In this document: positions 3,539-40,721 of the stretch, piece by piece
Layout: each line of letters opens with the position of its first letter
Numbering within the stretch: the stretch's first letter is position 1
Assembly: GCA_030432235.1 (NCBI GenBank)
Contig: JAUIHT010000005.1
Location: forward strand, 186,001 to 250,000
Direction of reading: 5' to 3'
Origin: Verrucomicrobiia bacterium
Lineage (GTDB): Bacteria; Verrucomicrobiota; Verrucomicrobiia; Opitutales; Cerasicoccaceae
Length of the DNA stretch: 64,000 bases
Position numbers and translations under genes: made by a program
The notes under the pieces: generated by a model
Databases searched by the model: none
What the model was told of the DNA's origin: nothing
What the model saw: the letters and a program-made list of their open reading frames with translations, nothing else

Positions 3539-5140
3539 TTACTCGGTCGGCGGCTCTTCGGTCTGGCGTTGCTCGGCTTCCTTGAAGCTGGCAACGACCC
3601 AGGCCGATAGCTGCTTATCGGGCTCCTTGGCAACGTCCGCATCGATTTCGAACGTGTCCTTGTCGATATTGCGTTGGATGATCTTGAGGCCGTGCTGAAA
3701 GTCCTTGAAACGATCTTCGCAGATGGTGCGCAAGGTTTTGTCGGATTCGGTCGCCACCTCGATGAGCACATCGGCGGCATCGTCGGTGAATTTTAAACGG
3801 ATGCCGTGCTCGCTCTCGAAGCTCTTGGCGAAGGACTCCAGATCCTCCTTCCAGACACTGTCCATGAGGTGCTTGTTCTCGACCACCAGATGCGTCAACG
3901 TCTCCTCGGGATTGGCCACCGTCTCGGTCGTGACCTCGAAGGACTTGATCGCGGTCGAGGGCAGCTCGAATTTGAAATCGCGGAAGATGCGTTCCAGAAC
4001 TGTCATGAGGCCGCGCGCGCCGGTCTTTTCGCCGTGGGCACGATGGGAGATTTCCGTGATGGCCTCGGGGGTGATGTCGAACTCGATACCGTAGCCCTGG
4101 AAGTCCGAGCGGTACTGCCGCAGCAGCGAGCCCTCCGAGGAGGTCAAAATCTTGGCCAAGTCGCCCTCGCTGAGTGATTCGCAGGCCACGCGCACGGGCA
4201 CGCGCCCGATGAACTCAGGCTCGAAACCGTACTTGATAAAGTCCGCCGTGGAGGCCTGGGCCAGGTAGCGGTTGTTGTCCTCGTCTTCATCGCCGGACGG
4301 GGCGTTTGCGAAGCCGATGGCGGCATTGCCCACGCGCTTTTTGACCGACTCGGCCAGCTTGTCGAAGGCCCCGCTCACGATAAAGAGGACGTGGCGGGTA
4401 TTGATCGTTTCCTTCTTGTTCTTGCCGCCGCGCATCATGGCCTGCATCTGCCCCATGATGTCGTTGGGGGCGAAAAGGCTGACCTCGGTGTCCTCCATCA
4501 GTTTGAGCAGATTGATCTGTACACCGCGACCGGAGACGTCCTTGCCGACGCCTTCCCCGCCGGCAATTTTGTCAATTTCGTCGATATAGACGATGCCGTA
4601 CTGGGCCAGCTCGATGTTGCCATTGGCGGCCTTGACCAAGTCGCGGACGAGGTCTTCGACGTCGTTGCCGACGTAGCCGGTCTCGGAAAACTTGGTGGCA
4701 TCAGCCTTGACGAAGGGCACACCGATCATCTTGGCGATATTGCGCATAAGGTAGGTCTTCCCTACCCCGGTGGGCCCCAGCAGTAGGATGTTCTGCTTGC
4801 TGTATTCACGCTCCAGCAGCTTGGGCTTCTCCAGGCAACGCCGCACGTGGTTGTAGTGATCGCAAATAGCCACGGAGAGCACCTTCTTGGCCTCGTCCTG
4901 GCGAATGACGTAGCGGTTCAGGTGATCGCGGATGTCCTTCGGCTTGAGGTTAAAATCGCGGATGCGCCGCAGGACCTCTTCGTCCTTGGCCTTTTGCTCG
5001 TCAGAAGGTTCTTCCTGCTCGGGCATGCCCTGGCCGGGCATGGCAAAGGTCACACGCGGGTTTCCGGGGCCCTGCTTAAAAAGGTTTTGGAGCTGCTTTT
5101 GCAGGTCATCCATCTGTGGGTTGTCGTCTTTTTCACTCAC
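3539..5140 (-). CDS. ClpX-like AAA+ ATPase without the N-terminal zinc domain
   Basis: A hexameric unfoldase-type ATPase of the ClpX/HslU group. Walker A GPTGVGKT is at residues 122-129, Walker B IVYIDEID at 183-190, the pore-loop motif GYVG at 155-158, an AIGF sequence in the place of the ClpP-docking IGF loop, the arginine-finger region (PEFIGRVP), and the sensor-2 motif GARGL. Canonical ClpX starts with a four-cysteine zinc-binding domain; here the first 55 residues are Gln/Pro/Glu-rich with no Cys motif. At 533 residues it is about 100 longer than typical ClpX, the extra part being an acidic C-terminal extension from about residue 400. No clpP is in the window. It is convergent with leuA, with stops two bases apart. 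It may be a second ClpX paralogue with its own substrates; whether it partners with ClpP is not known. Confidence 0.85.
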
Positions 5141-5373
5141 GGGAATGTAATGTATGCGTTAATGTCGGCCTGTAAACTTGCCTGGCATAATTAAGAAACC
5201 GTCAACTCGTACCTGTTCCTAAGCAATTAAAAAGACTTTAACTGCGATATTAATCTTCGATTAATATAAGTCCCCTAAAATGAGGGAATTATTTATGTTT
5301 GACTTGCATAAATTGCTGTAGACTCTTGTCCTCACGACGCACACCTTGTCACCCGCCACACAGGGCTCGCATC

Positions 5374-5685
5374 ATGGCCGCTAATCTTACCAAGCGAGAT
5401 ATTGTCCTCGAAATCTACGAGAAGACCAACTTCCCACAAAAGGAGGTTCGTGAAACTGTGCAAATGACTCTGGATGTCATAGCCAAAGCGTTGGCTGAGG
5501 GTCGAAATGTAGAGTTGCGCAACTTTGGGGTCTTCGAAGTTCAAGTACGCAAAAGCCGCATCGGCCGGAATCCGAACAAGCCGGAAACCGACGTGGTCAT
5601 TCCTACCCGGGCTGTTATCAAGTTCAAGGCCGGCAAGGAGCTCAAGGCGCACTTGCAGGAGATTGATCTGGACCAGATCTCTTAA
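5374..5685 (+). CDS. IHF/HU family DNA-bending protein
   Basis: Small dimeric nucleoid protein that bends DNA. The preferred start is the ATG at 5374, giving 103 residues beginning MAANLTKRDIVLEIYEK, the normal family N-terminus; an upstream in-frame ATG at 5299 would add 25 unlikely residues. The beta-arm region carries GRNPNKPETDVVIP, a variant of the GRNPxTG signature with Pro at the intercalating position, more IHF-like than HU-like. The C-terminal KFKAGKELK motif is typical. It is followed after six bases by dtd, suggesting co-transcription. Whether it forms homodimers or pairs with another subunit elsewhere cannot be judged here. Confidence 0.92.
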   Translation: MAANLTKRDIVLEIYEKTNFPQKEVRETVQMTLDVIAKALAEGRNVELRNFGVFEVQVRKSRIGRNPNKPETDVVIPTRAVIKFKAGKELKAHLQEIDLDQIS

Positions 5686-5691
5686 CGGCCC

Positions 5692-6144
5692 ATGCGGGCT
5701 GTTATCCAGCGAGTAAGCCGCGCTGCGGTTACCGTGGAAAATGTAGTGCGCGGAGAGATCGGCCCCGGTCTCCTCGTTTTTTTGGGCGTTGGTCAGGATG
5801 ACGGTCCTGAGGATGTCGAATGGCTGGCGCAAAAGGTAGCTGTCCTACGTGTTTTCGAGGATGAAGCCGGCAAGATGAACCGCTCCGTGCTGGATACCGG
5901 CGGCGGCGTGCTGGTCATCAGTCAGTTCACCCTCTTTGGCAGCCTGAGGAAAGGCTCGCGGCCTTCTTTTAACAAAGCTGCTCCACCTGAGCTGGCCGTC
6001 CCCCTCTACGAAAGCTTCGTCGCAAAAGTTTCCGAACACCTCGGTAAACCGGTACCCACGGGCGTCTTCGGGGCCATGATGGATATCGAGGCCCACAACG
6101 ACGGTCCCGTTACCATCGTTCTCGATACGAAAGTGAAGGATTGA
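5692..6144 (+). CDS. dtd: D-aminoacyl-tRNA deacylase
   Basis: Hydrolyses D-amino acids (and glycine mischarged on tRNA-Ala) from tRNA, a chirality checkpoint of translation. The 150-residue length is standard. The two family signatures are present: [17 protein letters not shown] in the middle (usual form SQFTLxADxxKGxRPSF) and GVFGAMM...NDGPVTI at the C-terminus carrying the Gly-cisPro-type active-site loop region. The first residues [15 protein letters not shown] are the usual start. It follows the IHF/HU gene by six bases. Downstream a palindromic element separates it from the convergent recD2. Confidence 0.96.
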
Positions 6145-6167
6145 ACCCCGTCCTACTCTACAGGTCG

Positions 6168-6246
6168 AACCACGAAATTTACAAAAATACACGAAATTTC
6201 AGATCTGCTGGTTTCGCTTTTCGTGAATTTAGTCTTTTTCGTGGTT
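6168..6246. repeat. Palindromic AACCACGAAA-type intergenic element between dtd and recD2
   Basis: Left arm begins AACCACGAAA at 6168 and has a second CACGAAA; the right arm, read on the other strand, begins AACCACGAAA from 6246 and also has a second CACGAAA. The arms are imperfect and enclose about 11 bases. It sits between two convergent genes, so it could act as a two-way terminator. Related elements occur at 51290-51368 and 51808-51837. Confidence 0.6.
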
Positions 6247-6253
6247 AAACAAA

Positions 6254-8446
6254 TCAACACATGGCTTTTAGCCGCAAGCCCAGGCCGGTAATGCGCTCGG
6301 CGGATTCGGAATTGCGCACAGCCATGGCATAGGCAGCGGGGTCTCCCACGATGAATACTTTTTTCCGCCCCCGCGTGATGCCGGTGTAGAGCAGGTTGCG
6401 TTGCAGCATGATGAAGTGCTGCTTGAGCAGAGGGATGACCACGATGGGAAACTCGCTGCCCTGGCTCTTATGGATGCTGATAGCGTAGGCCGGAGAGAGG
6501 TCCAGCATGTCGCCACGGGTGAAGTCCACCACCCCGCTGTCGAACTGTGCGGCGAGCGTACCGGACTCCGCGTCGATGGCGGTGACGCGCCCGAGGTCGC
6601 CGTTGAAGATGCCCAAGTCGTAGTTGTTGCGGGTCTGGATGACCTTGTCCCCGACGGCGAAGCGTTGCGGGCCGATGGAGACGCCGCGCCCGTGTGGGTT
6701 GAGCGCCTGCTGGAGCTCGGCGTTGAGGTTGCCGATGCCGGCCACGCCCTTGTGCAACGGAGCCAGCACCTGGATGTCCATGACCGGGTCGGCCCAACCG
6801 TACCACTTGGGCAGCAACTTGGAACAGAGCCGCGTCACGGCCGCTAGGCAGCGGTCGGGCTCGGGTGCATGGACGAAGTGCAGGTCCGTCGAAATGTCGA
6901 TCTGGTCCGGCGCGGTGGCGGGCGCTGGCGGGTCCGCGCGGTTGTGCAGGATGGCGTGGGAGACCTCCACGATGCCACTACGCGCGCCCTGGCGGAAGAT
7001 TTTGTCCAGCCGGGTGACGGCGCAACCGCCGGGTTTGTTTTGCAAAATGAAGCGAATGACGTCCTTGAGGACGTTGCCCGCGCCCACGGACGGGAGCTGG
7101 TCGACGTCGCCGACGAAGAGCAGATGCGCCTGCTCGGGCACGGCCTGCAACAAAGCGGCGGCCAGGCGGGTATCGAGCATGGAGGTCTCGTCGACCACCA
7201 CGAGGTCGGCCCGTAGCGGCTTGTCCTCGTTGCGAACAAAGCCCCCCTGCGACGGATCCCACTCCAACAGGCGGTGAATGGTCTTGGCTGTGGCGCCAGT
7301 AGACTCGCTCATGCGCTGGGCGGCGCGGCCGGTCGGTGCGGCCAGCAGGACGCGGGCCTTCTTGACCTTCACGATTTCCACCAGAGCGCGCAGGATGGTC
7401 GTCTTGCCCGTGCCCGGCCCTCCGGTCAGGACGGACACCTTGTGGCGCAGCGCGGCGACCACTCCGGCGGCCTGCTCGGGCGCGAATTCGAAGCCCGCCT
7501 GCTCTTGGGCCCAGGCCACGGCTTTGTCCACCTGGATGGAGGGTAAACCTGAAGGCGCCTCGGCGATGGCGTGGACGCGCTCGGCAATGCGTTTTTCGGC
7601 CCGCTCCAGGAGCGGTAGCTGCAACAGCTTGCCGCCGCCGGCGTCCAACTCGATAAAGGCCTCGCTCGCGACCAACTCCGGCACGCGTGTCTCGACCAAC
7701 GGACGTTCCACCTCGAGAAGCTTGGCGGCATAGTCGATCAGGTCACTCGTTGGGAAGGCGGTGTGGCCTTCGGACTCGAGCTCGCTCAGCGCGAAGAGCA
7801 GCCCGGCGTCAATCCGCTGAGCGCTTTCGTTGGCGTAACCGAGATTGAGCGCGATACGGTCGGCGGTCTTGAAACCGATGCCCGGCACCTCGCGCGCCAC
7901 ACGATACGGGTCATTTTGGAGGATGGTTTTCGCCGGGGTGCCATACTTGCGAATCAGCCGCAGGCACAGCGCGGTGGTCACGCCATAAGTCTGAAGAAAA
8001 ACCATGACCTCCCGCAGGGCCGTTTGCTCGTCCCAGGCCTCCTTGATGAGCTTGGCCCGCTTGGCTCCGATGCCCTCGACCTGGCGCAGTTTGCCGGACT
8101 CGTCCGAGATAATCCGCAGGGTATCCTCGCCGAATTTGTTGACGATGCGCTCGGCGTACTTCGGGCCGATATGCGGAATGAGCCCGCTGCCGAGGTACTT
8201 GCGGATACCATGCACGCTGGCCGGCAGCTCTGCGGTGAACTTCGCCACCTTGAACTGCGCGCCGTGCACCGGGTGCTGCGTCCATTCGCCGTCCAGCGCG
8301 AGGGTTTCACCGACCTGTGCTCCGGGCATGGCCCCGACGATGGTGATCGCCTTGGCGCCCTCGGGCCGGAACTCACCGATGGTGTAGTGGTTCTCCTCGT
8401 TCTGGTAGACGATGCGTTCCAGCACCCCTTTCAGCGTATCCGGCAT
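6254..8446 (-). CDS. recD2: RecD2-type ATP-dependent DNA helicase
   Basis: A 5'-to-3' superfamily 1B helicase of the RecD2 group (stand-alone, not part of RecBCD). About 730 residues. The N-terminal part contains the family OB-like start (TLKGVLERIVYQNEENHYT) and tandem helix-hairpin-helix motifs (LGSGLIPHIGPKYA, VEGIGAKRAKLI, VPGIGFKTADRIA). The motor has Walker A TGGPGTGKTT near residue 340, Walker B VVDETSML, a GDVDQLPSVGAG motif III and a C-terminal SIHKSQGSEF motif. The ATG at 8446 is preferred; a GTG at 8461 would add five residues. It is third in the ndk-yhcH-recD2 run. Known roles of this group are in replication-fork and mismatch repair. Confidence 0.95.
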   Translation of the reverse strand: MPDTLKGVLERIVYQNEENHYTIGEFRPEGAKAITIVGAMPGAQVGETLALDGEWTQHPVHGAQFKVAKFTAELPASVHGIRKYLGSGLIPHIGPKYAERIVNKFGEDTLRIISDESGKLRQVEGIGAKRAKLIKEAWDEQTALREVMVFLQTYGVTTALCLRLIRKYGTPAKTILQNDPYRVAREVPGIGFKTADRIALNLGYANESAQRIDAGLLFALSELESEGHTAFPTSDLIDYAAKLLEVERPLVETRVPELVASEAFIELDAGGGKLLQLPLLERAEKRIAERVHAIAEAPSGLPSIQVDKAVAWAQEQAGFEFAPEQAAGVVAALRHKVSVLTGGPGTGKTTILRALVEIVKVKKARVLLAAPTGRAAQRMSESTGATAKTIHRLLEWDPSQGGFVRNEDKPLRADLVVVDETSMLDTRLAAALLQAVPEQAHLLFVGDVDQLPSVGAGNVLKDVIRFILQNKPGGCAVTRLDKIFRQGARSGIVEVSHAILHNRADPPAPATAPDQIDISTDLHFVHAPEPDRCLAAVTRLCSKLLPKWYGWADPVMDIQVLAPLHKGVAGIGNLNAELQQALNPHGRGVSIGPQRFAVGDKVIQTRNNYDLGIFNGDLGRVTAIDAESGTLAAQFDSGVVDFTRGDMLDLSPAYAISIHKSQGSEFPIVVIPLLKQHFIMLQRNLLYTGITRGRKKVFIVGDPAAYAMAVRNSESAERITGLGLRLKAMC

Positions 8447-30931: not shown

Positions 30932-31315
30932 CTAAATGAGGCCCTTTTCCTTAAATACTTTTTTGGCTTCCATGATGGCGTTGGTGGCCGAGGGGAAGCC
31001 GCAGTAGGCAATCATCTGCGTTATGGTCTCGACGATTTCCTCCTTGGTCGCGCCTTCGTTGAGCGCACAGGCCACGTGCAGCTTGAGCTGAGGCAGCGCA
31101 TTGCCCATCACAGTCAGGGCCGAGAGCGTGACGAGCTCCTGCGTCTTGGGGTCGAGGACGTGACTCTTGTTACCGTAGATGTCCCCGAAGGCGAACTCCA
31201 CGTTTACCTTGGCGAAGAGCGGAGCCACTTCGCGTATGCTTTCGATGTACTGGTCGGCCTCCGGGCCCAGATGCTCACGCATCACTTCGATGCCTTTTTC
31301 GTAACGGTCACTCAT
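30932..31315 (-). CDS. Carboxymuconolactone decarboxylase family protein
   Basis: A 127-residue alpha-helical protein of the CMD/AhpD family. The signature helix is LKLHVACALNEGATKEEIVE, with His and Glu at the positions used by PcaC-type decarboxylases, followed by YCGFPSATNAIMEA. The CxxC redox pair of AhpD is absent; two separated Cys remain. Family members act as 4-carboxymuconolactone decarboxylases, peroxidases or enzymes of unknown role. It is last of four genes transcribed with malic enzyme, acetolactate synthase and a DoxX-like protein, 12 bases after the latter. No protocatechuate-pathway gene is nearby, so the true substrate is open. Confidence 0.88.
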   Translation of the reverse strand: MSDRYEKGIEVMREHLGPEADQYIESIREVAPLFAKVNVEFAFGDIYGNKSHVLDPKTQELVTLSALTVMGNALPQLKLHVACALNEGATKEEIVETITQMIAYCGFPSATNAIMEAKKVFKEKGLI

Positions 31316-31327
31316 GATTGGTAAGGA

Positions 31328-31783
31328 TTAGAGTTGGAACAAACTGTACGGGCCGGATCCCATAATGGCGAAAAAGAAACCGACGGCGGCGAGGACAAAG
31401 TTCTTTTCCGCCGAGGTGACATGCCCGACAGTGGCCAGTGTGCTCACGCCGGTCAGGGTCGCGCGATCGGCGTCCGTGGCAGTGTCACCGAGCTTTGCCT
31501 CCGCAGCGGTGGCAGCCAGCTTGTAGTGGACCTTTGCCCCCAGCAGACTGTACACGCAGAGCATGGCGCCGCCCACGCGTGGCAGCACACCCAGTAAAAT
31601 CGAAAGCGCGCCCGCAATCATCACCACGATCATCAGTTTCGCCCCCAAGGGTACGAGCGCCTTCGGGCAGAGAAGCGCGATCAGGCCCTCGGCACCTTTC
31701 CAATCGGCGAAGAGCGCCTTCAACGGCCACAGAAACATCCAGGCATAGACAAGGCGAAGAACGATCCAGGCGAGTGCTTCCAT
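31328..31783 (-). CDS. DoxX-like integral membrane protein
   Basis: A 151-residue membrane protein with four hydrophobic segments and the DoxX-like pattern: LRLVYAWMFLWPLKALF at the N-terminus, GAKLMIVVMIAGALSILLG, the GGAMLCVYSLLGA segment and a final FVLAAVGFFFAIMG. DoxX relatives include a subunit of thiosulfate:quinone oxidoreductase and proteins of oxidative-stress complexes; which applies here is unknown. It starts six bases after the acetolactate synthase stop and precedes the CMD-like gene by 12 bases, so all belong to one transcript. Confidence 0.8.
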   Translation of the reverse strand: MEALAWIVLRLVYAWMFLWPLKALFADWKGAEGLIALLCPKALVPLGAKLMIVVMIAGALSILLGVLPRVGGAMLCVYSLLGAKVHYKLAATAAEAKLGDTATDADRATLTGVSTLATVGHVTSAEKNFVLAAVGFFFAIMGSGPYSLFQL

Positions 31784-31789
31784 ATCCTC

Positions 31790-33442
31790 TTAATTGCCCA
31801 CGTCATCCCGATGGGCGTCGACGAAGAGCTGCATGTTGTCGGAGTAGTCGATTTCCACGTCGATGAGGGTCGGTCCGGCGATGCCCTGCGCTTCCTGGAT
31901 GGTGGAAACGATGTCGCCAGGGGAGTCGATTTGGAAGCCGACCGCACCGAAGGCGGCGGCGAAGGCGGGAATGTCAATCTTGCCCAGCTCGACCGAGGCC
32001 TCGCGATGGTACTTCATGATCTGCTGCTCCTTGACCATGTCGTAGGAGCCGTCACGCCAAACGATATGCGTGAACTGCAAGCCTTCACGCACGGCGGTCT
32101 CCAGCTCCATGGCGGAAAAGAGGAAGCCGCCGTCGCCAGAGATTGAGATGACCTTCTTCTTGGGAAAGGCAAACTTGGTCGCCATGGCCCAGGGCAGGCC
32201 CACGCCGAGTGTCTGCTGGCCGTTGCTGAATAAAATCTGATGCGGAATATGCGAAAACAGATAGCGCGCCAGCCACATGTAAACCGAGCCGATGTCGCAG
32301 CAGACCACGGTGTCCTCGTCGATGACTTTATTGAACTCGTGGACGAAGCGCAGCGGATGGACGGTCTTGCCCTTGCCTTTCTTGGACCCGGCGCCGTCGA
32401 GGATAGCGAACAACTCCTCGCGCAGAGCGGGATAGTCGGCCACGACCACCTGGCTGGTGGCATCGGTCAGCAGCTCGAGGTTTTCGGCGATGTCGCCGAT
32501 TAGCTCACAGGCCGGCGTGTACTGTGTGTGGATGTTGGCCGGTGTGTAGTCGATGTGCAGAATCTCCTTGGAGTGATCAGCGTTCCAGACCTCGGGGTCG
32601 TACTCCACGGGATTGAAACCGATGGCCAGCACCAGATCGGATTGCTCCAGCACGCGGTCGCCGGGCTGATTGCGGAAGAGCCCTACCCGCCCGTGAAAAC
32701 AGTGCATGTGCTCTTTGGAAATAACTCCGGCGGCCTGATAGGTGTTGATGGCCGGCAGTGGATGCTTTTGGAAAAACGCCTGGATGGCCGCGTAGTTGAC
32801 CGGGCGGCTGGCCTCTTCTCCCAGAAGCACCACCGGAGCCTTGGCTTCTTCCAGACGCTTGGCTGCGTCCGCGATGGTGGCGGTCCGGGCACGGCCACGC
32901 ACAATCGACGGGGCCGTGTAAACGGACAAGTGTGAGGCGTCCGCCAGCATGACGTTCTGCGGCAGGCTGATGAAGCACGCCCCCGCCCGCGGGGCCGCGG
33001 CCAGCCGGAAGGCGTTGGCTAGACATTCCGGCACGACCTCCGGCGCGGTCACCTCAACACTGGACTTGGTTACGCTCTCGAGCAAGGTGGCGTTGTCGGT
33101 GTTTTGGTGCGACTCCTTGAACTTCATGTTCTGCGGCACGTTACCGCCGAGGGCCACCACAGGATCGCCTTCCGTCGTCGCGGTCAGCAGGCCGGTGGTC
33201 AAATTACCCACACCCGGCCCGGAGGTGACCAGCACCACGCCGGGCTTGCCGGTTTGACGCCCGTGCGCGGCAGCCATGAAGGCGGCGTTCTGCTCATGAC
33301 GACAGAGAACGACCTTGATGGGCGAATCCACCAGCGCGTCGAAGACCTTGTCGATCTTCGCACCGGGAATACCAAAGATGGTATCGACGCCGTGGGCTTC
33401 GAGGCACTTGACCAGGAGTTGAGCTGTCGTCTGTGTCGCCAT
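31790..33442 (-). CDS. alsS: Acetolactate synthase, catabolic (AlsS/BudB) type
   Basis: Thiamine-diphosphate enzyme joining two pyruvates into acetolactate. The ATG at 33442 gives 550 residues; the open frame upstream runs into the malic enzyme gene. The N-terminus FGIPGAKIDKVFDALVDSP and RHEQNAAFMAAAHGR are characteristic of the FAD-independent catabolic AlsS/BudB form rather than biosynthetic IlvB, and no regulatory subunit ilvN follows. The ThDP-binding region is GDGGFLFSAMELETAV to about WRDGSYDMV, where the usual NxxYxM reads DGSYDMV. It lies 22 bases after malic enzyme, which would supply pyruvate. No acetolactate decarboxylase (alsD/budA) gene is present. Confidence 0.92.
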   Translation of the reverse strand: MATQTTAQLLVKCLEAHGVDTIFGIPGAKIDKVFDALVDSPIKVVLCRHEQNAAFMAAAHGRQTGKPGVVLVTSGPGVGNLTTGLLTATTEGDPVVALGGNVPQNMKFKESHQNTDNATLLESVTKSSVEVTAPEVVPECLANAFRLAAAPRAGACFISLPQNVMLADASHLSVYTAPSIVRGRARTATIADAAKRLEEAKAPVVLLGEEASRPVNYAAIQAFFQKHPLPAINTYQAAGVISKEHMHCFHGRVGLFRNQPGDRVLEQSDLVLAIGFNPVEYDPEVWNADHSKEILHIDYTPANIHTQYTPACELIGDIAENLELLTDATSQVVVADYPALREELFAILDGAGSKKGKGKTVHPLRFVHEFNKVIDEDTVVCCDIGSVYMWLARYLFSHIPHQILFSNGQQTLGVGLPWAMATKFAFPKKKVISISGDGGFLFSAMELETAVREGLQFTHIVWRDGSYDMVKEQQIMKYHREASVELGKIDIPAFAAAFGAVGFQIDSPGDIVSTIQEAQGIAGPTLIDVEIDYSDNMQLFVDAHRDDVGN

Positions 33443-33464
33443 GTTTAATCTTTCGCTTCGTCGA

Positions 33465-35171
33465 TTAGCGTTTAACCGGAATATAGAGCGGCTCCCACTG
33501 GTTGAGCGCGACGAGTTTCTCCACATCCTCCTCCTTCGCCTTGATGGCGGACAAGCCTTCGGCCACGGCCTGCTTGCCCACCGCCACGGCCACCGAGCCG
33601 CTGACTTTGAGCGCGTCGTGGATGGGCGGCAGCACGGGATTGCCGATGCCCTTGTGTAGCGGTGAGAAGCTGCTCAAGGTGCGCGAGGCGGCGCGAATCA
33701 TGCCGTCGCTGACACAGGTGGCTTTGACCGCGATGGCGCCGAGCCCAAGACCGGGAAAAATGAAGGCGTTGTTGCCCTGCGAAATCTGGTAGGTCTTCCC
33801 TTTGTAATCGACCGGTGCAAAGGGGCTGCCCGCCGCGATGATGCCCTTGCCGTCCGTCAGTTCGATGATGTCCTTGGGCTCCGCCTCGGAACGCGATGTG
33901 GGATTGGACAAAGGCATAATGACGGGGTACTCCGCGTTTGCCGCCATCTGCCGGATAATGGCGGGGGTAAAGGCACCCTTCACTGTGGAACAGCCGATTA
34001 GGATGGTCGCCTTGCCGTTTCTCACCACCTCTTCCAGTGTGATATTCGAGGAGTCTTTCACATCCCACGCGGACACCTCGCTGCGCTTGCGGGCGTAGCA
34101 TTGCTGGAAGTCAGGCAGGTTCTCCATATCATCAACGACCAACCCCTGCCGGTCGATGATGTAGAAGCGGCTGAGGGCGTCCTCCTTGCTCAAGCCGCCG
34201 GCGACAAAGGCGTCGAGGATTTGGTCCATGATGCCGCAGCCGGCCGTGCCCGCGCCGAACATGACCACGCGATGATCGCCGTAGGCCGTCTTGGTCGCCT
34301 CGATGGAGGCGATGACGTTGGCGGTGGCGACGATACCGGTGCCCTGCATGTCGTCATTGAAAGTGCAAAGCTGCGGGCGGTACTTTTCCAGGATGGAACG
34401 GGCGTGGTCGCGACCGAAGTCCTCCCAGTGCAGGTAAACATTGGGAAAGTGTTTCTCCACGCTGGCGACGAACTGCGCGATGAAGGCATCGTACTCCTCA
34501 CCGGCGATACGCTTGTGGGGCGAGCCGAGGTACATCGGGTCGTCGAGCAACGCCTGGTTGTTAGTGCCTACGTCGAGCTGGATAGGCAACACCCGGGCAG
34601 GATTGATACCCGCGCAAATGATGTAGACCATGAGCTTGCCGATGGAGATATCCATGCCGCCGATTCCCCAGTCCCCGATGCCGAGCACGGCCTCGCCGTC
34701 TGTAACGATGATGAGGTCGATTTGGCGGTTCGTGAATCCGGCCAGGATGCCATCCATGTGCTCGCGCTCCTGATAGGATAGGTACACTCCAGCAGGGCGG
34801 CGAAACTCCGCGGAGTATTTCTCCACCGCGTCACCCACGGTAGGCGTGTAGACGATGGGCAACACCTCGTCGATGTGCTGGCTGGCAAACTGGAAAAAGA
34901 GCGTCGTGTTGGTATCGTGCAGGAGGTTGAGGAAGACGTTGCGCTCGATGTCGTTGCCCTTCTCCTTGAACTGGCGGTAGACCCGCCGGACTTGCGACTG
35001 CATGGTCTCCACCTGCACCGGCAGGCGGCCGTTGAGTCCGAGCGTGTCGCGCTCCTCCTGGCTGAAAGCGGTGCCCTTATTGACCAGGGGGTTATCCAGA
35101 ATTTGCTGTCCGGGCTCGTCGGTTTGGATAGCAATGACTTTTCCGGCGTCGTTTTTAACTTCGGTATACAT
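33465..35171 (-). CDS. maeA: NAD-dependent malic enzyme
   Basis: Oxidative decarboxylation of malate to pyruvate and CO2. The 568-residue length matches the large NAD-type family (E. coli MaeA/SfcA-like) rather than the short or fused NADP forms. Visible segments: LPIVYTPTVGDAVEKYS with the catalytic Tyr, GIGDWGIGGMDISIGK, the metal-binding HWEDFGRDHA and FNDDMQGTG, the NAD-binding VMFGAGTAGCGI and SNPTSRSEAEP. It is first in a four-gene unit and has a good promoter 66 bases upstream. Coupling with catabolic acetolactate synthase suggests disposal of malate-derived pyruvate. Confidence 0.95.
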   Translation of the reverse strand: MYTEVKNDAGKVIAIQTDEPGQQILDNPLVNKGTAFSQEERDTLGLNGRLPVQVETMQSQVRRVYRQFKEKGNDIERNVFLNLLHDTNTTLFFQFASQHIDEVLPIVYTPTVGDAVEKYSAEFRRPAGVYLSYQEREHMDGILAGFTNRQIDLIIVTDGEAVLGIGDWGIGGMDISIGKLMVYIICAGINPARVLPIQLDVGTNNQALLDDPMYLGSPHKRIAGEEYDAFIAQFVASVEKHFPNVYLHWEDFGRDHARSILEKYRPQLCTFNDDMQGTGIVATANVIASIEATKTAYGDHRVVMFGAGTAGCGIMDQILDAFVAGGLSKEDALSRFYIIDRQGLVVDDMENLPDFQQCYARKRSEVSAWDVKDSSNITLEEVVRNGKATILIGCSTVKGAFTPAIIRQMAANAEYPVIMPLSNPTSRSEAEPKDIIELTDGKGIIAAGSPFAPVDYKGKTYQISQGNNAFIFPGLGLGAIAVKATCVSDGMIRAASRTLSSFSPLHKGIGNPVLPPIHDALKVSGSVAVAVGKQAVAEGLSAIKAKEEDVEKLVALNQWEPLYIPVKR

Positions 35172-35278: not shown

Positions 35279-36280
35279 CTACTCTTGTCCGGCAAGCTGT
35301 TCTTGTTTCACCGAAATGGCATCCGGCGGCAAAACCCTGGCCACACCCACGCTACCCTTCTTTATCGCGTCAAGGTTTTCAAGCATCTCGACTTCGCGAG
35401 TGACACGCTCGGGGTTCAGCGAGCCGTAGGTCTCACCTTTGGCGGGATCGCCCTTGCCCAGATTTTCCGAAATGATCATGCCCCGGGAAAAATCGAGAAA
35501 GGCGCCCTCGACCTCGCCGCCGCGTGCGGCCTTGATGGCCTCATGCGCGGGTGTGGGATCGTTTTCCAGATAGTCCTGCCAACCACGCGTGTAGGCACGC
35601 AGAAATTTCGCGGCGACCTCGGGGCGCTCCTGCAGGAATTCGTCGTTGGCGAAGAGCACGGCATAGACCTCGTAGCCGGCCTGCCACAAACGCAGGAACT
35701 TTAACTCCACACCCTGCTTTTTCGCGTAGTACGGCTCAGCGATATAAAACCCCTCCTGGATGAATTCCGGATCGCTGATAAGCTGCCCCAGCCCGAAGCT
35801 CTGCGGAATGACGTTAAAGTCGATGCCGTACTTCTGCCGGATAAAAGGCAGGTAAAGCGCCTCGGGGCGCGCCATGACCGTCTTGCCCTCCAGCTCCTCG
35901 AAGCTGCTCACCGGATTATCCTTGTGGAGCATCAAGGCGGTGGGCAGTTGATGAAAGACGCTAGCCAAAAGACGCACGGGCAAGCCACGCGCCGCCGCCG
36001 TAATCACCTGTGTGCTGGCGGACTGGCCCACGTCGGCCTTGCCAACCGCCACCGACTCAATCACGGCGATGTTCGCGCCACCGGGCCGGATTTCCACCTC
36101 CAGGCCTTCTTCTGTGAAATAGCCTTTGGCCTGCGCCTGATATAGCCCGCCATGTTCGGGCTCCGGCACCCAGTCGAGCTGCACCACGACCCGCTCAAGG
36201 CCGTTAGCGCTCTTCTCCGACTCACGCGAGCAGCCGGCAAATAAAACAAGGCACAGAAATATCGAAATCCACTTGGTCAC
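35279..36280 (-). CDS. NMT1/THI5-type substrate-binding lipoprotein
   Basis: A periplasmic-binding-protein-type lipoprotein of the NMT1/THI5 (SsuA/TauA/ThiY-like) group, which capture thiamine precursors, sulfonates or similar small molecules for ABC import. A GTG start at 36280 gives 333 residues with an ideal lipoprotein signal (TKWISIFLCLVLFAGC, lipobox LFAGC); an ATG at 36316 would add 12 residues. The family opening is VVVQLDWVPEPEHGGLYQAQAKGYF, and ...GGANIAVIESVAVGKADVG follows. No ABC permease or ATPase is adjacent. It starts nine bases or more after the RND pump stop on the same strand, an unusual partner. Confidence 0.85.
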   Translation of the reverse strand: MTKWISIFLCLVLFAGCSRESEKSANGLERVVVQLDWVPEPEHGGLYQAQAKGYFTEEGLEVEIRPGGANIAVIESVAVGKADVGQSASTQVITAAARGLPVRLLASVFHQLPTALMLHKDNPVSSFEELEGKTVMARPEALYLPFIRQKYGIDFNVIPQSFGLGQLISDPEFIQEGFYIAEPYYAKKQGVELKFLRLWQAGYEVYAVLFANDEFLQERPEVAAKFLRAYTRGWQDYLENDPTPAHEAIKAARGGEVEGAFLDFSRGMIISENLGKGDPAKGETYGSLNPERVTREVEMLENLDAIKKGSVGVARVLPPDAISVKQEQLAGQE

Positions 36281-36325
36281 ACCCGCGTAACAAGACACTG
36301 ACGCGTTCGCTGGCAACCCGGAAAA

Positions 36326-39300
36326 CTATTCTGAGGGATTTGCCGGCTGTTCCTCAGGCTTCTTGCTGAACTTCTCTACCACGTTCTGGACGATATAGTA
36401 CAGCATCGGCACCACGACCACGCTGACGATAGTCGCAATCAGCATGCCACCGAAGACCGCCGTCCCGATGGCGCGCTGGCTTTCGCCGCCCGCTCCGCTG
36501 GCCACCAACAGCGGAATCACGCCGAGGATGAAGGACAGGGCCGTCATCAGGACCGGACGGAAGCGCAGCTTGGCCGCGCTCACGGCAGCGTCGAAGATCG
36601 ACATGCCGCATTCACGCTGCACCTTGGCGAATTCCACGATCATGATCGCGCTCTTGGTCGACAGGCCTATCAACAACACGACCCCGATCTGCGTGTAGAC
36701 GTTGTTGTCATAGTCGCGAATCATCAGCGCCGCCACCGCTCCGGCCAGCGCTGTCGGCACGGCCAGGACGACAGAGATCGGCAGCGTCCAGCTTTCGTAC
36801 TGAGCGGCCAGCACCAGGTACACCAGCACCACTGAGAGGACGAAGATAATTGTGGTCGAGCCGGTGGATTTGGCCTGCTGGTAGGAAAGGTCCGTCCAGT
36901 CGAAGCCTACCGCCGTCGGGAGAGTCTGATCGGCCATGTTGGTAAGGACCGACATGGCATCGCCCGAGCTGTAGCCGGGGCTGGCGCTTCCCATTATTTT
37001 CACCGAGGGGTAAAGATTGTAGCGGGTCACGCTCTGCGGTCCCACGATCTCCTTGATTTCCAACAAGCCGCCAAGTGGCACCATTTCACCGTTAGGCGCC
37101 TCGATGTTGAGCTGCCGTATGTCCTCGGGTTGCGCGCGAAATTCCTGCTCGGCCTGTGCGTAGACCTTGAAGACGCGGTTGAAGAGCGTGAAGTCGTTGA
37201 CGTAGCTCGACCCGAGGAAGACCTGCAAGGCATCCCAGATGGAAGCCAGGTTCAGGTTGCGGTTCTTGACCTGCTCGCGGTCGATGTCGAGAAAGAGCTG
37301 AGGCACGCTGGCGCGAAAGGTCGTGTACATGCCCTGCAAAGCGCTTTGCGAGTTGCCGTCGGAGATGAACTGCTGGGCCGTGTCCTGCAGGTTTTGCAAC
37401 CCGACACCCCCGCGGTCCTGCAGCATGAGAGTGAAGCCGCCGCTAAGACCTACGCCGGGCAGCGAAGGCACCGGGAAGGCGAAGGTCTGCGCGCGCTGAA
37501 TCTGCCGGAAACGCATGTTGAGTTGTTGCAGGATGGCACTCTGGTGTTCCTCCGGTCCGCGTTCATCCCAAGGCTCGAACACAGCGATGGCGAAGGCGGT
37601 GTTGGACGCCGCCGCACCGTCGATGAGCGAATAACCCGCGATGGTGATGTACTTGGCCACGCCATCAACCTCGGAGACAATTTGCCCGACCTGGTCGGTG
37701 ACGGATCGCGTGCGGTCCAGCGCCGCGCCGTCGGGAAGCTGAATAGCCACGATGCAGTAGCCCTCGTCCTCTTGTGGCACAAAGCCGGTAGGCAAACTGG
37801 AGAAGCCCATCAGGGCCAGCACGGTCATGCCGATAAAGAGCGCCGTACCAATAACGAAGCGGCGGATGGCCAGTTTGACCACGCCCTCGTAGCGGCCGAT
37901 CAGCTTGTCCATGCCCTTGTTGAACATACGGAAGAACCAGTTCACGCGCTCGGGCGGCGGCTTGAGCAGGAGGCTGCACAGCGCGGGGCTGAGGGTCAGC
38001 GCGTTGATCGAACTAAACACCGTGGCGATGGAAATGGTGACCGCGAACTGCTTGAAGAGCAGCCCGGTGATGCCACTGATGAAAGCCGCCGGCACGAAGA
38101 CCGCCAGCAACACCAGGGTTGTGGCTATGACTGGCCCACTGACCTCCGTCATGGTAAGAAAGGCCGCGTCCTTGGCGGATTTACCCTGCTCGATGTGACG
38201 CGAACAGTTCTCCACCACCATGATCGCATCGTCCACTACGATACCGATGACCAGCACGAAGCCGAAGAGCGTGAGCTGGTTGATGGAGTAGCCGATGACC
38301 GCCATCACCGCAAAAGTGCCCAGCAACGACACCGGAATGGTCAGCGACGGAATGATGGTGGCACGCCAGCTCTGCAGGAAAATGAAGACCGTCAGGATGA
38401 CGAGCACCAGTGCCTCAAAGAGGGTTTCTTTAACATTCGCGATGGAGCTGACGATGATGAGCGAGTTGTCGTAAACGACCTCATAGGCCAGGCCCTCGGG
38501 AAAGCTCTTGGACAACTCTTCCAGCCGCTCCTTGATGCCGTCGGTGACCGCGATCGCGTTGGCGCCGGGCACTTGGTAGGCCGCCATGACGGCGGAAGGC
38601 ACGCCGTTGAAGCGCGAGCTGAGCAGGTAGGACTCCGCCCCGAGCTCGACCCGTCCGATGTCACCGATGGTCAAGGTACCGCCGCTTTGGTCGGTGCGGA
38701 TGATGATGTTGGCAAACTGTTCGGGATCCACCAAACGACCCTCGACATTGACGGTGTACTGGAAGGCCTGATTCTTGGGCGCGGGCGGCTGGCCGATGAT
38801 GCCGGCGGCCACCTGCACGTTTTGCTCCTGGATTGCTCTGGTGACCTCGTCGACGGTGACGGCGCGGGCCTTCATCGCCTGCGGGTCGAGCCAGACACGC
38901 ATGGAGTATTTGCCCGCACCAAACGTCTGCACATTGCCCACACCGGGCACACGGGCGATTTCGTCTTTGATACGCAGGTCCAGATAATTGGAAACAAACA
39001 GGTCGTTGTAGCTGCTGTCCGGCGAGTAAAAGGCGACGTAAACGTTCGCGGTGGTGCTTTTCTTATCCACCGTCACACCGAGGCGTTGCACTTCCGAAGG
39101 CAAAGATGACGTGCTTTTGCTGACACGGTTCTGCGTCAGCACGTTGGCCATATCCACATCCGTACCGGTTTCGAAAGTCACCGTCAGCGTCATGGATCCG
39201 TCGTTGGCGGAGATGCTGGACATATAAATCATGTCCTCGACGCCGTTGACGTTTTGCTCGATGGGCGATGCCACCGTGTCAGCTACCGTAAGCGCATCCG

Positions 39301-39457
39301 CGCCGGGATAGTTGGCCGTGACGGTGATGGTAGGCGGGGCGATGTCCGGATAGCGGTCGACCGGGAGCGCGACCATGGAAAAGACGCCAATGATCACGAT
39401 GACAATGGAAATCACCATGGCCAGGACCGGGCGCCGGATGAAGATGTGGCTGAACAT
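36326..39457 (-). CDS. RND efflux transporter, HAE1 family
   Basis: A 1043-residue inner-membrane proton-driven multidrug pump of the AcrB/MexB type. The N-terminus (FIRRPVLAMVISIVIVIIG) and the twelve-segment, two-large-loop architecture are visible; the proton-relay VVDDAIMVVENCSRHIEQG segment carries the paired Asp of TM4, and PAGFISGITGLLFKQFAVTI and GLSTKSAIMIVEFAK are family motifs. It starts nine bases after the adaptor gene. No outer-membrane channel (TolC/OprM) gene is in the unit, so it would use one encoded elsewhere. Substrate range cannot be deduced. Confidence 0.96.
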   Translation of the reverse strand: MFSHIFIRRPVLAMVISIVIVIIGVFSMVALPVDRYPDIAPPTITVTANYPGADALTVADTVASPIEQNVNGVEDMIYMSSISANDGSMTLTVTFETGTDVDMANVLTQNRVSKSTSSLPSEVQRLGVTVDKKSTTANVYVAFYSPDSSYNDLFVSNYLDLRIKDEIARVPGVGNVQTFGAGKYSMRVWLDPQAMKARAVTVDEVTRAIQEQNVQVAAGIIGQPPAPKNQAFQYTVNVEGRLVDPEQFANIIIRTDQSGGTLTIGDIGRVELGAESYLLSSRFNGVPSAVMAAYQVPGANAIAVTDGIKERLEELSKSFPEGLAYEVVYDNSLIIVSSIANVKETLFEALVLVILTVFIFLQSWRATIIPSLTIPVSLLGTFAVMAVIGYSINQLTLFGFVLVIGIVVDDAIMVVENCSRHIEQGKSAKDAAFLTMTEVSGPVIATTLVLLAVFVPAAFISGITGLLFKQFAVTISIATVFSSINALTLSPALCSLLLKPPPERVNWFFRMFNKGMDKLIGRYEGVVKLAIRRFVIGTALFIGMTVLALMGFSSLPTGFVPQEDEGYCIVAIQLPDGAALDRTRSVTDQVGQIVSEVDGVAKYITIAGYSLIDGAAASNTAFAIAVFEPWDERGPEEHQSAILQQLNMRFRQIQRAQTFAFPVPSLPGVGLSGGFTLMLQDRGGVGLQNLQDTAQQFISDGNSQSALQGMYTTFRASVPQLFLDIDREQVKNRNLNLASIWDALQVFLGSSYVNDFTLFNRVFKVYAQAEQEFRAQPEDIRQLNIEAPNGEMVPLGGLLEIKEIVGPQSVTRYNLYPSVKIMGSASPGYSSGDAMSVLTNMADQTLPTAVGFDWTDLSYQQAKSTGSTTIIFVLSVVLVYLVLAAQYESWTLPISVVLAVPTALAGAVAALMIRDYDNNVYTQIGVVLLIGLSTKSAIMIVEFAKVQRECGMSIFDAAVSAAKLRFRPVLMTALSFILGVIPLLVASGAGGESQRAIGTAVFGGMLIATIVSVVVVPMLYYIVQNVVEKFSKKPEEQPANPSE

Positions 39458-39466
39458 CGCGCGGCG

Positions 39467-40642
39467 CTACTGCTGAGTTTCCCCCTTGGCCGGAGTCGGC
39501 TGAGCCGGCTCGGCGCCGGCGCGCTGCGGCGTCACCTTACCACCCGGTCGGGCTCTTTGCATGCCGGCAACAATAATGACATCATTCGCTTCGAGACCTT
39601 TTTCAATCACACGTCCCTGCTCCACCAGCGGCCCCTTGGTCACGCCTCTGCGGGCCACCACATTATCGGTGCCGACAACCAGGACGTAGGAGCCCGCTAA
39701 ATCGCGCTGCAGAATTTCGTCGGGCACAACGATGGAGTTTTCCTTCACCTGGGCGTAGCGCACCTTGGCGAAGAGGCCGGGCAGCAGAATGAAATCAGGA
39801 TTGGGAAAGACGGCGCGTGATTCCAGGGTGCCGGTCTCGGAATTGATGCGATTGTCGGCGAAGTCCACGTAACCCTCCTGTGCGTAAACCTCGCCGTCCG
39901 CCAGGACCAGAGAAACACGCGGGGCCTCTTTGACCTCCTGGCGTGGGCGTATCCCGCCCTTGGTGAACTGGAGCATCGTGCGCTCGTCGATGGTGAAATA
40001 AACGTACATCGGGTCCATGCTGACAATGCTGGTCAGCTTGGTGTTACCATCCGCACCGACGAGATTGCCGATACCGACCAGCTCACGTGAAATACGCCCG
40101 GCGATGGGCGCTACGATTTCAGTGTAGCCCAGGTTGAGCTTTGCCGTACTGACCGCCGCCTGGGCCTGCTCCACATTGCCGAGGGCCAGGTCAAGGTCCG
40201 CCTTGCTGGCCAGCAAATCGAGCTCGGAAATGGCTTCGTTGGCGTAGAGCTGCTGGTTGCGCTGGTAAGTGGTCTCCTCAAGCTTGGCTTTGGCCTGGGC
40301 GCTGGCCAGCGCGCCCATGGCGGCCTCGAGGTCGGCCTGAAATTCTTCCTTTTGGAGCGTGAAGAGCAGTTGCCCCTCCTCCACCAGGCTGCCTGGCTCG
40401 AAGTCCATGGTTTCGAGGAAGCCTTTGACGCGCGCGCGCACCTCGACCATGTCCACAGCGGCTGTCTGGCCGGTCATGATGGTGTAAACGGTGACGGGCC
40501 CGTGATAGGGCTCGGCCACGGTAACTGCGGGCGGGGGCGGCTCCTGGAACGTGTTACGCTCTCCGCAACCCATCAGCGCCATGAGCCAGACAAGCAAGGT
40601 AACGCCAGTGATTCCCCGGGCAATATATCGGACGGTAGTCAT
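39467..40642 (-). CDS. RND efflux periplasmic adaptor lipoprotein
   Basis: Membrane-fusion subunit that links the RND pump to an outer-membrane channel. The ATG at 40642 gives 391 residues with a lipoprotein signal (LLVWLMALMGC, lipobox LMGC); a longer frame from 40705 adds an unlikely extension. The order is typical: beta-barrel and lipoyl half (VEVRARVKGFLETMDFEPG), helical hairpin (about residues 95-155, Ala/Gln/Glu-rich), second lipoyl half (IVAPIAGRISRELVGIGNLV), then a beta-barrel and membrane-proximal domain. A Pro/Ala/Gln-rich tail ends it. It is immediately upstream of the pump gene. Confidence 0.94.
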   Translation of the reverse strand: MTTVRYIARGITGVTLLVWLMALMGCGERNTFQEPPPPAVTVAEPYHGPVTVYTIMTGQTAAVDMVEVRARVKGFLETMDFEPGSLVEEGQLLFTLQKEEFQADLEAAMGALASAQAKAKLEETTYQRNQQLYANEAISELDLLASKADLDLALGNVEQAQAAVSTAKLNLGYTEIVAPIAGRISRELVGIGNLVGADGNTKLTSIVSMDPMYVYFTIDERTMLQFTKGGIRPRQEVKEAPRVSLVLADGEVYAQEGYVDFADNRINSETGTLESRAVFPNPDFILLPGLFAKVRYAQVKENSIVVPDEILQRDLAGSYVLVVGTDNVVARRGVTKGPLVEQGRVIEKGLEANDVIIVAGMQRARPGGKVTPQRAGAEPAQPTPAKGETQQ

Positions 40643-40721
40643 GAGCAGGAATAGCAGCAGTCTGTAAGCGGAATACCATCTGGCAACGAGAAACATTTCA
40701 GTCAAAGGATTAGGATATACC

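Follow-up and report, generated by a model that had tools for sequence, protein, structure and literature searches.

Acetoin pathways usually pair a catabolic acetolactate synthase (AlsS) with the acetolactate decarboxylase BudA/AlsD. The operon described here raises the question of which protein would take the second step when the synthase gene is accompanied instead by one for a protein of the carboxymuconolactone decarboxylase (CMD) family. It lies in a window of 64,000 nucleotides, the whole stretch of DNA that was analysed, from a Verrucomicrobiia bacterium, and consists of four co-directional open reading frames, listed here in the order of the operon:

33465-35171, - strand: malic enzyme, NAD-type (malate to pyruvate), first gene of the operon; Pfam and NCBIfam
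31790-33442, - strand: AlsS, catabolic acetolactate synthase (2 pyruvate to acetolactate + CO2); NCBIfam equivalogs
31328-31783, - strand: DoxX-like small membrane protein; position, and homologues over the PF07681 cut-off
30932-31315, - strand: CMD-family protein of an AlsS-linked clade, proposed metal-free acetolactate decarboxylase; PF02627, clade, exchange with BudA in relatives, fold match to 2af7

The operon and its CMD-family protein

The intergenic gaps are 22, 6 and 12 bases, the probable start of AlsS being the ATG at 33442, 22 bases past the stop of the malic enzyme gene. Reading frames and family scores agree on the four-gene operon with gaps of 6-22 bases that an earlier note on this DNA had described. 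In profile searches, the malic enzyme scored 788.6 bits for NF010052 (cut-off 326) and showed the PF00390 (malic) and PF03949 (Malic_M, NAD-binding) domains; among solved structures, it comes closest to NAD-dependent malic enzymes. AlsS exceeds the cut-offs of two equivalog models (NF006378, 731.2 bits versus 510; TIGR02418, 684.5 versus 551.1) and has catabolic synthases as its nearest solved relatives. The DoxX-like protein scores 12.1 bits for PF07681, below the cut-off of 23.6, which its same-position homologues exceed (24-26 bits in L049, L050 and L009), and the position of its gene is kept in Verrucomicrobiota and Legionella-type genomes. The earlier note had asked whether the gene order is conserved: malic enzyme-AlsS-DoxX-CMD is also the order in another genus of this family (L003/L004, one genome). 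A parallel operon, malic enzyme-AlsS-BudA, occurs in a gammaproteobacterium (L051) and supports the same malate-to-acetoin pathway. The near-consensus promoter that had been placed ahead of the operon could not be recovered, since the promoter scan gave no match upstream of the malic enzyme gene and one elsewhere in the region, where 1.2 are expected by chance. Upstream of the operon on the same strand (35279-36316 and 36326-40705), the translations resemble by eye an NMT1/THI5-like substrate-binding lipoprotein, followed by RND efflux pump-like and membrane-fusion protein-like genes.

The CMD protein has 127 residues and is placed in the CMD superfamily by its PF02627 score (66.5 bits, cut-off 23). 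Its structure was predicted with a pLDDT of 82.5, lower around residues 36-40; the model has the all-helical CMD fold and matches 2af7 at a TM of 0.75-0.82. This fold differs from that of BudA/AlsD, and the protein (P0001) has no PF03306 match in profile searches. As had been noticed from the sequence, it keeps the Glu/His pair, here E60 and H80, at positions that align with the Glu and His of AhpD, and it lacks the AhpD CxxC pair. The CxxC pair is absent from the AhpD site in 29 aligned members, and the window protein has no CxxC at all, which rules out an AhpD identity. C105, its sole cysteine near the active site, is not conserved, several members having Ala or Gly there. Among named NCBIfam families, PcaC-type ones match the protein best; for the PcaC equivalog TIGR02425 it scores 64.7 bits against a cut-off of 155.7. 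On the tree, a single clade of 42 sequences (support 96/94) takes in all 26 CMD proteins linked to AlsS, whereas other CMD paralogues and two PcaC encoded in pca clusters branch outside it. Within this clade, residues E60, N38, V39, Y47 and M101 hardly vary, if at all, and PcaC has others at these positions; H80 is common to both. A PcaC identity was rejected on the score cut-off, the tree and these signature residues.

What stands beside AlsS in other genomes

Using the CMD protein alone as query, we found 33 loci in Verrucomicrobiota, Planctomycetes, Legionella, Coxiellaceae, Alphaproteobacteria and marine cyanobacteria. AlsS adjoins CMD at many of them, with synthases that match the AlsS equivalog models, and the arrangement may be AlsS-DoxX-CMD, AlsS-CMD, CMD-AlsS with overlapping ends, or divergent. 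Since CMD may thus lie before, after or divergent from AlsS, their linkage cannot be put down to a single inherited arrangement. AlsS is not the sole context of the clade either, since relatives in picocyanobacteria and Planctomycetes have no close AlsS nearby; AlsS surveys at a strict threshold found no close AlsS in the sampled cyanobacteria and Planctomycetes. In L005 (Opitutia UBA4506; 5266-6384), AlsS is broken into two fragments beside an intact DoxX-like gene and an intact CMD gene, and in L007 (Legionella gresilensis; 4142-6372) the CMD-clade gene lies downstream of a pyruvate/indolepyruvate decarboxylase-type gene. These cases suggest that part of the clade obtains its acetolactate elsewhere or acts on a different substrate. 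DoxX-CMD pairs stand without AlsS in L009 and L030, and the plasmid neighbours of CMD relatives in Priestia and Actinomyces revealed no AlsS link. Downstream of the CMD-clade gene, marine picocyanobacteria have a conserved gene for a short protein of cupin-like appearance, again with no AlsS nearby (L012, 5995-6808; L026, 5995-6807; L021, 2759-3572).

To avoid selecting for CMD, we took AlsS as the query in the window's phylum, two proteobacterial classes and two orders, and scanned with profiles about 1.5 kb on each side. This gave 66 AlsS loci, adjoined by a CMD-clade protein (21), BudA (29), a partial BudA (1; L131, with an N-terminal piece only), a protein that we call family X (7) or none of these (8). 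None of the 66 has two of CMD, BudA and family X. Under independence, the chance of zero overlap between CMD and BudA is 6e-8, a value that ignores relatedness. The share of 21 CMD loci in 66 is not a population frequency, because the groups searched were partly chosen via CMD loci; the exclusion is independent of that choice. On the AlsS tree, at least nine changes between CMD and an acetolactate decarboxylase (ALDC) are needed, and eight for CMD against BudA alone.

Family X comprises proteins of about 268 residues with no Pfam match, adjacent to AlsS at the seven loci and, next to a truncated CMD, at L035; their positions include:

L040: 211-1065, family X protein
L046: 679-1485, family X protein
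L099: 665-1474, family X protein
L102: 670-1476, family X protein
L110: 659-1468, family X protein
L128: 669-1475, family X protein
L035: 2832-3632, family X protein

A profile-profile comparison did not connect family X to BudA, and the one link of the family to ALDC is the predicted fold: in a model with mean pLDDT of 92.5, 14 of the 15 top PDB matches are acetolactate decarboxylase or ALDC-like chains, at 10-13% identity. Judging from this model, family X is probably a cryptic, diverged ALDC missed by annotation, which simplifies the pattern: the neighbour of AlsS would usually have the ALDC fold and otherwise be CMD. At L035, from a Coxiellaceae MAG, the neighbours of a CMD gene without its first ~32 residues (3819-4106) are a DoxX-like gene and family X, the latter intact, as expected if CMD and X are redundant. 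DoxX-like proteins occur at 11 of the 21 CMD loci, at three BudA loci and at two loci with neither. They thus seem to be part of the acetoin module as a whole rather than tied to CMD; DoxX as an obligatory partner of CMD is ruled out by its absence from the other 10 CMD loci and its presence at those with BudA. A link to the quinone pool, which the earlier note had suggested for the DoxX-like protein, would likewise not be specific to CMD.

An exchange in place is visible in one alphaproteobacterial group whose AlsS proteins are 90-95% identical. Nearly the full length of the CMD-bearing L082 (Rhodospirillales 24-66-33) aligns with five BudA-bearing relatives (L080, L081, L139, L140 and L141). 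The alignment has a single gap, with flanks that are 85-92% identical in DNA on either side. The gap is filled by 652 bp with CMD in L082 and by 1.0-2.0 kb with BudA in the relatives, both genes being divergent from AlsS. BudA was most likely replaced by CMD in L082, because the synthase of this locus (L041) sits inside the BudA-bearing group on the AlsS tree. The CMD segment has a G+C content of 62.6%, against 67.7% in the flanks, and its CMD DNA is 86.8% identical to that of L142, although the AlsS of the two are only about 80% identical. The simplest reading of these sequences is a horizontal replacement of BudA by CMD.

The acetolactate decarboxylase that the earlier note had declared missing is indeed lacking from the operon, but not from the genome, where a search revealed one BudA/AlsD on contig C37 (PF03306, 264.6 bits), unlinked to AlsS (L001, 1420-2205). 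Such a gene elsewhere had been named as grounds for refuting the CMD proposal. Taken literally it is there; we regard it as weakening the proposal rather than refuting it, because it has an apparent export signal, is unlinked to AlsS, and most of the other CMD-type genomes checked have no BudA. Its N-terminus, MYRIGRAIIVAGCLALLPWGARG, looks by eye like an export signal, and so does that of the BudA of L037, from a second genome with the same operon; no such signal was seen by eye in BudA proteins adjoining AlsS in other genomes. This suggests that the unlinked BudA is an extracytoplasmic acetolactate decarboxylase, and the window CMD and this BudA may act in different compartments. CMD and a genuine BudA coexist in three CMD-type genomes (G000, G004 and G874, the window's included), and BudA is absent from G786, G056 and G082. 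In the remaining CMD genomes checked, PF03306 matched only in G075, and weakly. Conversely, the CMD clade is absent from all five BudA-type genomes checked.

A candidate acetolactate decarboxylase and its alternatives

We consider it quite likely that the CMD protein is a metal-free acetolactate decarboxylase, not homologous to the known one. Of the arguments bearing on the idea of a non-homologous decarboxylase, which the earlier note had raised, the in-place exchange with BudA, the lack of any co-occurrence at the 66 loci and the repeated exchange on the AlsS tree speak for it, and the budA gene elsewhere in the genome speaks against it. The operon would then be an acetoin-forming overflow pathway, in which malic enzyme would convert malate into pyruvate (and NADH), AlsS would condense two pyruvate into acetolactate, and CMD would decarboxylate acetolactate to acetoin without a metal or a thiol. 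Being a beta-keto acid, acetolactate gives off CO2 easily, and little more than binding it and protonating the enediolate is required of an enzyme. Glu60 and His80 are conserved where AhpD has its proton relay, though the cysteines are missing, and could serve as general acid/base on the beta-keto acid, much as PcaC acts on 4-carboxymuconolactone. The genomes show the gene identities, the linkage, the in-place exchange with BudA, the mutual exclusion and the separate clade; we infer the substrate, the product, the catalytic residues and the absence of a metal, as well as the difference in substrate from PcaC and the role of E60 and H80.

Other explanations have to be weighed against the same evidence. 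The CMD protein could have some other activity towards acetolactate or its by-products, as a racemase, a tautomerase or in the handling of diacetyl or acetoin, and be useful only where BudA is absent, the decarboxylation itself being spontaneous or oxidative via diacetyl. Proteins of the CMD fold have diverse activities, and acetolactate does decarboxylate without an enzyme. A spontaneous aerobic route for this decarboxylation has been stated (PMC9666466). An accessory role would nevertheless fit poorly with a reciprocal exchange in the same slot with both BudA and family X and with zero co-occurrence, which point to the same step, and we regard this explanation as unlikely. We give much less credit to a redox or peroxide-defence protein, AhpD-like or other, that is merely co-localised and has the DoxX-like protein as its membrane partner. 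The CMD and DoxX families each include redox-linked members, and the AlsS-free DoxX-CMD pairs of L009 and L030 would suit such a role. However, the protein has no CxxC, its C105 is replaced in several members, DoxX is absent from nearly half of the CMD loci (10 of 21), and the exclusion of BudA would be left unexplained.

The pattern of exchange and exclusion might also owe nothing to function and stem from shared ancestry and from assemblies that are chimeric or mis-binned. Many of the genomes are MAGs and related loci are not independent, but the key CMD locus, that of L082, lies within a 604-kb contig, another lies on a 5.19-Mb contig, and the eight to nine or more changes on the tree make this explanation highly improbable. 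We find it hardest of all to believe that the protein is an ordinary PcaC of protocatechuate breakdown that stands here by chance. The shared superfamily and the PcaC-type NCBIfam families favour it; against it are the low TIGR02425 score, the separation from the two PcaC of pca clusters by tree and signature residues, and the linkage to AlsS, which is repeated in several phyla and in which BudA can take the place of CMD.

Extending the preferred reading, metal-free decarboxylation of acetolactate by CMD, from the window protein to its relatives, we think it likely that the AlsS-linked CMD clade is a second acetolactate decarboxylase, which would have evolved independently of BudA/AlsD and been exchanged with it many times across Verrucomicrobiota, Alphaproteobacteria, Gammaproteobacteria and marine cyanobacteria, so that annotation based on BudA alone would miss acetoin production.

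Relation to known systems

In the open-access literature, subscription papers lying outside this scope, we found no report tying CMD-family proteins to acetolactate decarboxylation. What is probably new here is an unrelated enzyme family for one step of a known pathway. If so, the textbook step from acetolactate to acetoin has a second enzyme, now annotated just as a "carboxymuconolactone decarboxylase family protein", and the capacity to make acetoin or butanediol is under-called in many bacteria with AlsS and without BudA. A small metal-free acetolactate decarboxylase would be of interest to brewing, for the control of diacetyl, and to the production of acetoin and butanediol.

The CMD protein resembles BudA/AlsD (PF03306) in its position beside AlsS, in their mutual exclusion there and in the reaction proposed, but it is all-helical, with 127 residues and no metal-binding His cluster, whereas BudA is a beta-rich zinc protein. 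With PcaC (TIGR02425) it shares the superfamily, the conserved His80 and the expected decarboxylation of a related acid; it differs in scoring below the cut-off, in its separate clade, in the lack of pca genes in the cluster and in E60, N38, V39, Y47 and M101, which are replaced in PcaC. The nearest solved structure is 2af7, an MTH234-type CMD protein titled gamma-carboxymuconolactone decarboxylase, which is 45% identical and has the same E60 and H80; unlike the window protein, it falls outside the AlsS-linked clade and lacks several of the residues conserved there. AhpD has the same fold and an aligned relay Glu and His, but both of its catalytic cysteines are absent from the window protein. 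As a whole, the operon resembles the alsS-alsD, als-aldB and bud acetoin operons in joining a catabolic synthase to a decarboxylase in one module, and differs from them in having CMD in the decarboxylase slot, together with a malic enzyme and a DoxX-like protein.
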